Shown here: in pieces, positions 25,893 through 28,522 of the stretch
Numbering within the stretch: the first letter of the stretch is position 1
Layout: each line of letters begins with the position of its first letter
Origin: Boseongicola sp.
GTDB lineage: Bacteria > Pseudomonadota > Alphaproteobacteria > Rhodobacterales > Rhodobacteraceae
Direction: 5' to 3'
Length of the DNA stretch: 41,857 nucleotides
Assembly (NCBI GenBank): GCA_029287375.1
Contig: JARFRG010000001.1
Span: forward strand, 1 to 41,857
Notes under the pieces: generated by a model
Database searches by the model: none
What the model was told of the DNA's origin: nothing
The model's input: only the letters and a program-made list of their open reading frames with translations
Program-made: the position numbers and the translations under genes

Positions 25893-25946
25893 CCTTTCTT
25901 CTTGGTTAAAATACTCAAAATGATCCATCGCGCTTCAGGACAGCGC
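25893..25946 (-). repeat. Dispersed intergenic repeat, copy 4 (reverse)
   Basis: Read on the minus strand: a hairpin GCGCT/AGCGC (25946-25930), then GAGTATTTTAACCAAGAAG and AAAGG (to 25893). The tail matches copies 1 and 3. Its purine-rich end sits at ribosome-binding distance from the TTG at 25885. Confidence 0.6.
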
Positions 25947-27490
25947 TATCTGCCTTTGAATAGCCCACCAAGAATGCCGCGCACAATGCGCCGCCCGGTC
26001 GTTCCCTTCAATTCTTTGACGACAATCCGGGTCAAAGCATCCCCAAAACCACCGCTTGAACGGGTCGAACCACGCGAGGTCGATTGCCCCACCCGCTCTG
26101 CTTCATACCGTCGCCCAGCTTTGTACTCGCGCGCCGCGTCTTTGGCTTCTACTTCAAGACGTTCAGCATCTTCCGCCTCTTTGGCAGCTTGTGCTGCACG
26201 ACCGCGCAGCACCTCAAACGCACTTTCACGGTCCTTTAGCGCCTCATATTTACCAGCAATGGGAGATGCGTTGATTGTCTCTTGCCGCTGGGATGCCGTG
26301 ATCGGCCCAAGTTGCGACGATGGAGGCCGGATCAATGTGCGTTCGACCACGCCGGGGGCGCCTTTGGATTCCAGCATCGACGTAACCGCCTCTCCCGTTC
26401 CAACCTCGCGGATCGCGTCTTCTGTCGGAAAGCGTGGGTTGTCGCGGTAAGTTTCTGCGGCTTGCTTGAGCTGTTTGCGGTCCTTGGCGGTAAAGGCGCG
26501 CAAGGCATGCTGCACGCGGTTGCCAAGCTGGCCCAGAATGTCTTCGGGAACGTCAGCGGGGTTTTGTGTGACGAAATACACTCCAACCCCCTTGGATCGG
26601 ATCAAACGGGCGACTTGCTCAACCTTGTCGACCAGCGCCTTGGGGGCGTCATCAAACAACAGATGAGCTTCATCAAAAAAGAACACAAGACGCGGCTTGT
26701 CCGGATCACCAACTTCGGGCAGTTCTTCGAAAAGCTCTGACAAAAGCCATAACAACGATGTCGCATAAAGCCGTGGTGATCCCATGAGCTTGTCGGCGGC
26801 AAGGATGTTGATGCGACCCCGCCCGTCAATATCCGTGCGCATGATGTCAGTCAGTTCCAACGCCGGTTCTCCGAAGAAATTCGCGCCGCCCTGGTTTTCA
26901 AGAACGAGCAACTGGCGCTGGATTGCGCCAATCGAAGCGGTCGAAATATTGCCATAGCGAAGCGACAACTCGGCGCGGTTTTCACCGAGCCAGACAAGCA
27001 TCGCCTGAAGGTCTTTCAGATCAAGAAGCGGCAGCCCGTCCTCGTCTGCAACCCGCACCGCGATATTCAAAACGCCCTCCTGAGCATTCGTCAACTCAAG
27101 CAGGCGCGACAATAAAAGCGGCCCCATTTCGCTGACCGTGGTGCGAATCGGGTGGCCTTGCTGACCAAACAAATCCCAAAATGTCACCGGAAAGGATTCG
27201 TAATTGTAGTCGTCAAAACCGATTGTACCGGCACGCTTCGTGAAGGCATCGTGCAATTTGAAGGTCTCGGACCCGGCCCGCGCAAGGCCAGAAAGATCGC
27301 CTTTCACGTCAGACAAAAAGACCGGCACGCCGGCAGATGCAAAGCCTTCGGCCATAATCTGAAGGGTAACTGTCTTTCCGGTGCCGGTGGCGCCCGCGAC
27401 CAGACCGTGGCGGTTCGCGTACTTGAGCAAGAGCCCTTGGTGGGTTGCATAACCTTCGCCGCCGCCACCCATGAAAATCGTATCTGCCAC
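25946..27490 (-). CDS. DUF853 / HerA-like ATPase
   Basis: A 514-residue P-loop ATPase of the HerA-FtsK group (COG0433, DUF853). Walker A is GATGTGKT at 33-40, Walker B is LVFFFDEAHLLF, and QNPADVPEDILGQLGNRVQHALRAFT provides the sensor/arginine region. The C-terminus is charged, probably coiled coil (about 425-470), then Gly/Ser-rich and basic. The family is widespread but its role in cells is not settled; DNA or protein translocation is inferred from the fold. It is the first gene of the minus-strand run toward the lipoprotein. Confidence 0.9.
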   Translation of the reverse strand: MADTIFMGGGGEGYATHQGLLLKYANRHGLVAGATGTGKTVTLQIMAEGFASAGVPVFLSDVKGDLSGLARAGSETFKLHDAFTKRAGTIGFDDYNYESFPVTFWDLFGQQGHPIRTTVSEMGPLLLSRLLELTNAQEGVLNIAVRVADEDGLPLLDLKDLQAMLVWLGENRAELSLRYGNISTASIGAIQRQLLVLENQGGANFFGEPALELTDIMRTDIDGRGRINILAADKLMGSPRLYATSLLWLLSELFEELPEVGDPDKPRLVFFFDEAHLLFDDAPKALVDKVEQVARLIRSKGVGVYFVTQNPADVPEDILGQLGNRVQHALRAFTAKDRKQLKQAAETYRDNPRFPTEDAIREVGTGEAVTSMLESKGAPGVVERTLIRPPSSQLGPITASQRQETINASPIAGKYEALKDRESAFEVLRGRAAQAAKEAEDAERLEVEAKDAAREYKAGRRYEAERVGQSTSRGSTRSSGGFGDALTRIVVKELKGTTGRRIVRGILGGLFKGR

Positions 27491-27508: not shown

Positions 27509-27536
27509 TTGTTCGCGCTTGCGGGTAGAATAAACT
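27509..27536 (+). promoter_or_regulatory. Predicted promoter of small RNA 1
   Basis: TTGTTC-N16-TAAACT, giving an expected start near 27543, directly before the first stem of the RNA described next. Confidence 0.4.
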
Positions 27537-27542
27537 GTTAAC

Positions 27543-27642
27543 TTTTATGTGCCAGAGTGAACCTGTCCTAAGGCACATTGGGTGTTTTTGGGACACTTCC
27601 TCCCTGTTGACTGGCCGCGCCCTGAAAAGCGCGGTCTTTTTT
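27543..27642 (+). ncRNA. Candidate small RNA 1 with anti-Shine-Dalgarno loop
   Basis: About 100 bases with three stems. They are TGTGCC/GGCACA (27548-27577); a short GACA/TGTT stem exposing CTTCCTCCC in its loop (27592-27608); and a terminator stem. There is no coding potential worth noting. A C/U-rich loop complementary to ribosome-binding sites followed by a terminator resembles the CcsR/cuckoo small RNAs of Rhodobacterales, which carry CCUCCUCCC loops. The match is partial and unverified. Confidence 0.45.
27613..27642 (+). terminator. Rho-independent terminator of small RNA 1
   Basis: CCGCGC/GCGCGG stem with an 8-base loop followed by TCTTTTTT on the plus strand. No plus-strand protein gene precedes it, which itself points to a short transcript. 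Confidence 0.75.
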
Positions 27643-27680
27643 ACCTGTCGCAGACCCGAGGAAAAGTGATCACTTCCCTG

Positions 27681-27709
27681 TTGACGGAGCGTTTTTGCTG
27701 CAATAGCTT
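27681..27709 (+). promoter_or_regulatory. Predicted promoter of small RNA 2
   Basis: TTGACG-N17-TAGCTT with a strong -35 box; expected start about 27716. The 12-base perfect palindrome AAGTGATCACTT lies just upstream at about 27664-27675 and could be an operator. Confidence 0.45.
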
Positions 27710-27715
27710 GCGAGC

Positions 27716-27786
27716 AATTAAAAAAGTCGGCCAGTCCGGCAGGGAGAAATGAAAAACAGGGTCTGGTTTCCAGGCCCTGTTTTTTA
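27716..27786 (+). ncRNA. Candidate small RNA 2
   Basis: A predicted transcript of about 70 bases between the promoter at 27681 and a very strong terminator. It contains GGCCAGTCCGGC and a GGGAG element but no long ORF. Its 5' neighbourhood repeats a motif of small RNA 1: CACTTCCCTGTTGAC at 27671 against CACTTCCTCCCTGTTGAC at 27594. Confidence 0.4.
27752..27786 (+). terminator. Strong terminator upstream of the ialB-like gene
   Basis: AAAAACAGGG pairs with CCCTGTTTTTT, with an inner CTGG/CCAG extension and a TTT loop. The A and T flanks make it bidirectional. It lies 136 bases before the ialB-like ATG, so it ends an upstream RNA rather than a known gene. Confidence 0.85.
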
Positions 27787-27922: not shown

Positions 27923-28522
27923 ATGACGAACGTGTTGAGAATTATAGGTTTTGGTCTGGCATTGGGTTTCTCTGGGACCGCATTTGCGCAAACAGACACG
28001 CCCGCCGAACCCGAAACGCCCGCCGTAGAGGCCCCCGCCGAAGATGTTCCAAGTGGCCCTCAGCCCGGTGATACATTTGTCGGCGCCACATTCTCGGATT
28101 GGGAATTGCGCTGCCTGCGACTTGAGAATGGCTCAGACCGTTGTCAGATGTATCAGCTTTTGCGAGATGGAACCGGCACTTCGGTTGCCGAGGTCAGCAT
28201 TTTCGCGATCCCACCTGGCGGCCCGGCCGAAGCAGGTGCCTCGGTCATCACGCCGCTGGAAACACTTTTGACGGCCGATTTGCGCGTATCGGTGGATGGC
28301 GACAAAGCCCGTGTCTATCCCTACAGCTTTTGCACAGCAGACGGCTGCGTCGCGCGTCTTGGGTTCACGCCCGAAGAAATCACGTCATTCAAGCGCGGCG
28401 TTGCGGCGATGGTAACGCTGGTTCCAGCACTTGCCCCGGATCAAACCGTTGATCTGACCATGTCACTGTCGGGATTTACTGCCGCTTACGAAGACCTGCG
28501 CACACGTTCTGGTCTGAACTGA
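27923..28522 (+). CDS. Invasion-associated locus B (IalB) family protein
   Basis: A 199-residue exported protein. It has a clear signal peptide (hydrophobic run then TAFAQ cleavage at about residue 23), a low-complexity Pro/Glu/Ala linker, and the IalB domain from about residue 50. That domain shows FSDWELRC, CQMYQLL, paired cysteines in SFCTADGCVARLGF, and a beta-rich end. Despite its name, IalB occurs in many free-living alphaproteobacteria; its job there is unknown, periplasmic location is likely. ATG at 27923 has GGAG six bases upstream. A longer frame starting at 27749 runs through a terminator and is rejected. Confidence 0.88.
   Translation: MTNVLRIIGFGLALGFSGTAFAQTDTPAEPETPAVEAPAEDVPSGPQPGDTFVGATFSDWELRCLRLENGSDRCQMYQLLRDGTGTSVAEVSIFAIPPGGPAEAGASVITPLETLLTADLRVSVDGDKARVYPYSFCTADGCVARLGFTPEEITSFKRGVAAMVTLVPALAPDQTVDLTMSLSGFTAAYEDLRTRSGLN

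Follow-up and report, generated by a model that had tools for sequence, protein, structure and literature searches.

A conserved tandem of a SorX-like small RNA and its predicted RNA sponge in Rhodobacteraceae

Two short plus-strand units occupy the 432-nt gap between a HerA-like gene (minus strand) and an IalB-family gene (plus strand) in the window, that is, the whole 41,857-nucleotide stretch of Boseongicola sp. DNA that was analysed. Their sequence features favour, with rather better than even confidence, a reading in which unit 1 is a SorX-like trans-acting small RNA (sRNA) and unit 2 a separately transcribed RNA sponge of SorX-family sRNAs. The first-pass annotation had described two tandem non-coding plus-strand units, each with a terminator. 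These promoter-terminator units are real, and both are conserved in relatives. It was also right in kind about an anti-Shine-Dalgarno (anti-SD) sRNA, but overlooked that unit 2 is antisense to the core shared by unit 1 and SorX. Of the two elements unit 2 is the more interesting: it is conserved, is predicted to act as a sponge and corresponds to no Rfam family at cut-off in the window.

The neighbourhood of the two units is stable. Upstream and divergent lies the HerA-like helicase gene (25946-27490, minus strand; PF05872, Pfam 735.5 bits), and downstream the IalB-family protein gene (27923-28522, plus strand; PF06776, 118.2 bits). When 198 Rhodobacteraceae genomes, one per genus and with the source genome included, were searched at the DNA level, 92 gave matches. 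Among 92 loci with a HerA and/or IalB neighbour, local BLAST found both units in 75, unit 2 only in 13 and unit 1 only in 4; since these loci were found through the units, the resulting figures (unit 2 in 88/92, unit 1 in 79/92) describe the constancy of the neighbourhood and not the frequency of the units. Three further loci matching unit 1 alone, two of them the same site, turned out to be SorX. The text patterns used for locus counts left out three entries, L015 and L026 for unit 2 and L064 for unit 1, so that 86 of the 88 unit 2 loci, 78 of the 79 unit 1 loci and 72 of the 75 loci with both were analysed. In these 72, the two cores lie on one strand at a distance of 103-367 nt (median 137.5).

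Unit 1 (about 27565-27642, plus strand) begins with a 5' hairpin, continues with CTTCCTCCCTGTTGAC, which is unpaired, and closes with a GC-rich terminator and its T-run. Its core, CTTCCTCCCTGTTGACTGGCCG (27596-27617), is the predicted seed against mRNAs, as judged by unpaired probability and conservation: the predicted fold exposes a CTTCCTCCCTG core, with CTTCCTCCC (27596-27604) unpaired at a probability of 0.95-0.99 and 27596-27612 at 0.70-1.00, and many core columns are invariant or nearly so in a 46-sequence alignment. The exposed anti-SD-like core noted at first pass thus stands, but its placement in a hairpin loop does not, as the core is a single-stranded linker between two hairpins. 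The intrinsic terminator (27613-27642) is conserved: five of its nine consensus pairs show changes on both sides, and the central C-G/C-G/G-C pairs are present in 46/46 aligned sequences. A terminator scan of the window also picked up 27613-27636 with its T-run, evidence that is weak by itself because the scan found 3 terminator-like sites against 2.2 expected. A second anti-SD site is possible in the region of the 5' hairpin, where TCCTC, frequently within ATGTCCTC, is present at 27 of the 78 unit 1 loci.

The promoter of unit 1 is the weakest and least certain part of the locus, and the promoter scan of the window reported none for this unit. A forward extended -10 element, TGC-CAGAGT at 27550-27558, would place the start of transcription near 27565. 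The stretch 27527-27558, set beside that of relatives, can be read as a promoter on both strands: the extended -10 serves unit 1, and CTGGCA-N17-TATTCT on the reverse strand is the probable promoter of the divergent HerA-like gene, with TTAA between the forward and reverse motifs. Roughly half of the 78 unit 1 loci keep the spacing of this two-way stretch; TTAA-N8-TGNCA occurs in 45 and, with the extended -10 form at fixed spacing, in 38, and the reverse TGGCA-N17-TAT in 43.

What kind of sRNA is unit 1? At gathering score, no Rfam family was found anywhere in the window. Under permissive settings the nearest family is SorX (RF02784), at 26.9 bits against a cut-off of 46.6 (E 2.4e-4 in a 601-base search, 0.006 in a larger one), followed by suhB/MmgR (RF00519) at 23.8 bits against 41. 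Unit 1 was accordingly not assigned to either family, the true SorX of the same genome scoring 67.5 bits. It nevertheless shares with SorX of Rhodobacter sphaeroides the core, the hairpin-core-terminator layout and the approximate length: the SorX-type core CCUCCCUGUUGGAccUGGCCGG stands before its terminator, and CCUCCCUGUUG-A-CUGGCCG aligns to RF02784. It differs from SorX in its low score, in having its own predicted promoter and in not lying behind an OmpR gene. The alphaR8 decamer UUUCCUCCCU is single-stranded (PMC12559287), and unit 1 has CUUCCUCCCU, nine of its ten letters, unpaired between hairpin and terminator, but alphaR8/MmgR lies beside an FGase gene and unit 1 beside HerA and IalB genes.

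Unit 2 (about 27716-27785, plus strand, with a predicted start) has a promoter, TTGACG-17 nt-TAGCTT (27681-27709), that a simple promoter scan did not report. In 85 of 86 unit 2 loci a TTGAC-like box is separated from NAnnnT by exactly 17 nt, compared with 2.65 of 86 in shuffled upstream sequence; in relatives the -10 takes forms such as TAGCGT. The 21-nt core GTCGGCCAGTCCGRCAGGGAG (27726-27746) forms a 5-bp hairpin, GUCGG-CCAGU-CCGGC, followed by a free AGGGAG. It nearly matches the reverse complement of the SorX-type core, 18 of its 21 positions are at least 90% conserved in 44 sequences, and even with 2 mismatches allowed its pattern has no other occurrence in the window (chance mean 0.02). 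The stretch as a whole folds far better than shuffles (z -4.5 and -4.6), with the intrinsic terminator (27752-27785), whose pairs include some with changes on both sides, as the main contributor. In predicted folds AGGGAG is unpaired at 0.94-1.00 in the window, but averages only 0.48 across loci. A leader peptide in unit 2 was considered and rejected: an ATG follows GGGAG in 23 of 86 loci against 17.1 expected from shuffles, and there is no conserved open frame.

Covariance models extend the distribution beyond the loci found by DNA search. Model R1, built from 44 of the 86 unit 2 sequences, scores unit 2 of the window at 73.5 bits and finds matches in 180/198 same-family genomes at E<=1e-3 and in 166/198 at E<=1e-10; the stricter threshold was adopted for unit 2 counts because out-of-family matches reach 29 bits (E 6.6e-8). 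In a 289-genome sample of the class, 76 genomes have an R1 match at E<=1e-3, none from another family at E<=1e-10, and only four same-family genomes, including the source genome, above 29 bits. The sequence of the best out-of-family match (L256, 29 bits) was inspected and judged to be background. Model R2, built from 46 of the 78 unit 1 sequences, gives 69.9 bits for unit 1 of the window and matches 191/198 same-family genomes, usually several times each. SorX itself (RF02784) is matched in 188/198 at E<=1e-3, in 157 of them above cut-off; in 14 well-known control genomes the only match, in Caulobacter vibrioides, is below cut-off. With E<=1e-3 applied to both RNAs, nine of the ten genomes without a SorX match are also without unit 2, compared with 9 of the 188 with one, a co-absence that is suggestive and is confounded by ancestry and by the weak match of unit 1 to the SorX model.

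A pattern scan of named genomes gave at least 120 matching stretches, 80 of which were listed. Among the 80 listed, HerA or IalB is a neighbour in 61, of which 59 also show the unit 2 promoter pattern; the 61 carry Rhodobacterales titles except L110 (Maritalea) and L146 and L157 (unspecific titles). The other 19 listed matches lack both the HerA/IalB neighbour and the promoter, and look like chance; 18 are titled as other groups, such as Streptomyces and Hymenobacter, and one (L136) as 'bacterium'.

The case for a sponge is built on complementarity between conserved cores. Positions 27728-27746 of unit 2 are predicted to pair with SorX and with the complementary 27600-27617 of unit 1, and in the Boseongicola genome four SorX-like RNAs pair with unit 2 at predicted energies of -35.7 to -38.5 kcal/mol, a calculation that leaves out the cost of opening the unit 2 hairpin. 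Taken by itself, pairing energy in this one genome is modest evidence. Of 1000 dinucleotide shuffles, 4 (unit 1) and 12 (SorX) pair with unit 2 as strongly as the real sequence; the runner-up window in the 41.9 kb, with the antisense of unit 2 excluded, reaches -35.2 against -35.7 for unit 1, and on the SorX contig a site outside SorX reaches -36.8 against -36.4 for SorX (same scan, with a longer unit 2 query).

In 21 genomes, unit 2 was matched against the DNA stretch around SorX of the same genome (1.3 kb each, 6.5 kb for the source genome). SorX was the best match in 21/21, and no window free of the core did better; the best core-free windows, which may overlap SorX, come within 0.6-11.5 kcal/mol of the SorX-unit 2 energy. 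The SorX-unit 2 duplexes average -39.3 kcal/mol, with an uninterrupted run of 10-20 bp (median 14; 20 bp in four genomes). Pairing between unit 1 and unit 2 is interrupted, with a median of 20 pairs and a median longest run of 9 (72 loci), and in most genomes compared SorX is at least the equal of unit 1 in pairing with unit 2. Unit 2 thus has the extended complementarity to the mRNA-pairing core of an sRNA by which a sponge is recognised, at a strength that differs by genome. Covariation between unit 1 and unit 2 was not detected: units from one locus pair no more strongly than units from different loci (2055 of 5000 permutations were as good), a result that neither supports nor opposes pairing because both cores are too conserved to covary.

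These observations suggest a mechanism. Unit 1 would act in trans, probably with Hfq, its CUUCCUCCCUG core blocking ribosome-binding sites; both unit 1 and SorX would use their CUCCCUG core to repress mRNAs, of which potA is reported as a target of SorX (PMC9438474). The free AGGGAG of unit 2 could nucleate on the CUCCCU of SorX-family sRNAs, after which its GC hairpin, whose CCAGU loop is complementary to ACUGG, would open into a duplex of 18-20 bp. In the target, such a duplex would mask the core that pairs with mRNAs as well as the 5' arm of the terminator, and the sRNA would therefore be sequestered and probably degraded. SorX is the likely main target of unit 2. Unit 1, encoded about 75 nt upstream, is in the best reading a second target, and the persistence of unit 2 in some named genomes without a clear unit 1 fits a main target that lies elsewhere.

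Could control run in the reverse direction, with unit 2 regulating mRNAs and the SorX-like RNAs, unit 1 included, acting as its sponges? Complementarity is symmetric, the Boseongicola genome has a single match to the unit 2 model, conservation of the unit 2 core equals or exceeds that of the unit 1 core, and those genomes with unit 2 and without a clear unit 1 could be read this way too. This arrangement is nonetheless unlikely, as it is SorX that has a reported mRNA target, potA, and an exact-pattern search of the same genome turned up no additional extended complement to the unit 2 core.

Within the 2.9 Mb of the Boseongicola genome, four SorX-like RNAs can be recognised: unit 1, SorX on contig C169, an RNA on contig C10 and one on contig C186 (27.0 bits with RF02784). 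SorX (67.5 bits against a cut-off of 46.6) lies directly behind an OmpR-type regulator gene, as it does in R. sphaeroides (PMC6238624), and its core is identical to that of unit 1 through CCTCCCTGTTGACTGGCCG. The C10 RNA (L218 1510-1588, minus strand), a third SorX-like sRNA, scores 45.2 bits, just under the cut-off, and lies directly behind a LysR-type regulator gene. In favour of the sponge reading, the pattern CTCCCTG-N1-5-ACTGG has four sites in this genome, which fall in unit 1, SorX, the C10 RNA and the antisense of unit 2; the reversed control has one.

This clean four-site result does not hold everywhere. In eight other genomes, one of which has no site, the pattern occurs 21 times and the reversed control 17 times; the 10 of these 21 that were placed by coordinates are unit 1 (6), the antisense of unit 2 (3) and SorX (1). 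The SorX core varies, as seen in 20 other SorX loci chosen from the best-scoring SorX matches in genomes with a known unit 2. All 20 cores start CTCCCTGTTGGA, but only 8 read CTCCCTGTTGGACTGG (the CTGG continuation, 3 of them as CTGGCCGG); of the rest, 6 have an extra C (CCTGG), 5 read CTTG and 1 AACTGG. Most unit 1 cores have a mismatch or a bulge at the position that the G of GTTGG fills in SorX cores.

The tandem arrangement itself invites a different explanation, in which the two cores pair within one transcript that forms a cis-regulatory leader or attenuator of the downstream ialB, and neither unit is a trans-acting RNA. The usual presence of ialB as the same-strand neighbour and the position of both cores on one strand, at the median spacing given above, would suit such a leader, yet unit 2 has its own conserved promoter downstream of the unit 1 terminator, as well as its own terminator, and its pairing with unit 1 is equalled or bettered in most genomes compared by SorX, which is encoded elsewhere in the genome; a leader is thus improbable.

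Still less probable is a reading in which the unit 2 core is kept for its own hairpin or as a protein site, and its complementarity to SorX is a by-product of descent from an inverted copy. All five hairpin pairs are formed in 44/44 sequences, the lack of covariation between the units would be expected, and the reverse strand of unit 2 has some likeness to unit 1. The flanking AGGGAG, however, is dispensable for the hairpin and is also conserved and complementary to CUCCCU. The likeness of the reverse strand is an observation in its own right: the unit 1 model scores 27710-27789 on the minus strand at 21.5 bits. Such a score would be compatible with unit 2 having arisen by inverted copying of a SorX-like gene, though shared complementarity alone could explain it.

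Least of all do the data favour the earlier view of two related CcsR/cuckoo-type anti-SD RNAs from a local duplication, a very improbable one because the string CACTTCC..CTGTTGAC that both units have in the window belongs to the -35 box of unit 2 in relatives and is rare in unit 1, and because unit 2 carries the complement of the core, not a copy. The repeat CACTTCC(TCC)CTGTTGAC is present as the first-pass annotation described it, at 27594-27611 and 27671-27685, 77 bases apart. Its interpretation as a duplication fails in the relatives: the second copy of the CTGTTGAC segment corresponds there to the -35 region of unit 2, which reads CTGTTGACC/G in 52 of 86 loci, the unit 1 core reads CTGTTGACT in just 8 of 78 (36 read CCCTGTCAGACT), and the -35 box of unit 2 follows ACTTCCC or CACTTCC in 2 loci. 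The likeness is local, and a family-wide duplication is not supported.

The proposed kinship of unit 1 to CcsR/cuckoo RNAs fared no better in the Rfam search, where SorX and suhB/MmgR, both below cut-off, came nearest. An exposed C-rich anti-SD stretch is common to CcsR1-4/cuckoo and unit 1, but the CcsR/cuckoo motif, the C-rich anti-SD CCUCCUCCC, is absent from unit 1, which reads CUUCCUCCC instead. The neighbours also differ, HerA and IalB for unit 1 and ccaF1 (RSP_6037) for CcsR (PMC8307010).

By analogy, the closest documented case to unit 2 is CrfA of Caulobacter crescentus, reported to sequester SisA-D, four alphaR8 sRNAs with the core UUUCCUCCCU (PMC12559287, Nat Commun 2025). CrfA and unit 2 each have a G/A-rich element complementary to the CCUCCCU core of sibling sRNAs, and in each case one sponge would face a family of four. 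The action of CrfA is documented by probing, compensatory exchange and Northern blots (PMC12559287), whereas its unit 2 counterpart is predicted from DNA. Unit 2 differs in that its complementarity reaches ACUGGCCG, over 18-20 bp, and in that its gene adjoins one of its predicted targets. The comparison is by description, with no sequence kinship to CrfA in evidence, since R1 reaches at most 29 bits in class-sample genomes of other families, and neither SorX nor Rhodobacter appears in the main text of the CrfA paper (PMC12559287). A more distant parallel is StsR-UpsM of R. sphaeroides, where an sRNA also acts on an sRNA in the same order of bacteria: StsR, a 72-nt RNA under RpoHI/RpoHII, pairs with UpsM, a dcw leader RNA (PMC8307010), and is set apart from unit 2 by description only.

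A broader proposal can be made tentatively, at a little under even confidence: that unit 2 is a family-wide Rhodobacteraceae antagonist that sponges all SorX-like anti-SD sRNAs, is fixed in tandem with one of its own targets, and is the Rhodobacterales counterpart of CrfA, either of separate origin or diverged beyond recognition. If so, the sponge design described for Caulobacter in 2025 would not be unique to that genus, and 'one sponge per CCUCCCU-core sRNA family' would be a recurring design in Alphaproteobacteria. SorX is reported as a stress sRNA with a polyamine transporter as its target and a role in countering singlet oxygen and organic hydroperoxides (PMC9438474), and the open-licence literature searched yielded no named SorX antagonist. 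If both units are transcribed and form the duplex in cells, with Hfq, the direction of control and a physiological trigger as we infer them, so that SorX is sponged by unit 2, the ratio between two RNAs would govern much of the SorX regulon across a large family. Published sRNA lists are available for Paracoccus denitrificans (PMC5107571) and Ruegeria pomeroyi (PMC4809877). In four of the genomes (G022:C183, G148:C3, G182:C35 and G190:C76), two SorX matches above the Rfam cut-off lie within about 0.7 kb of each other.
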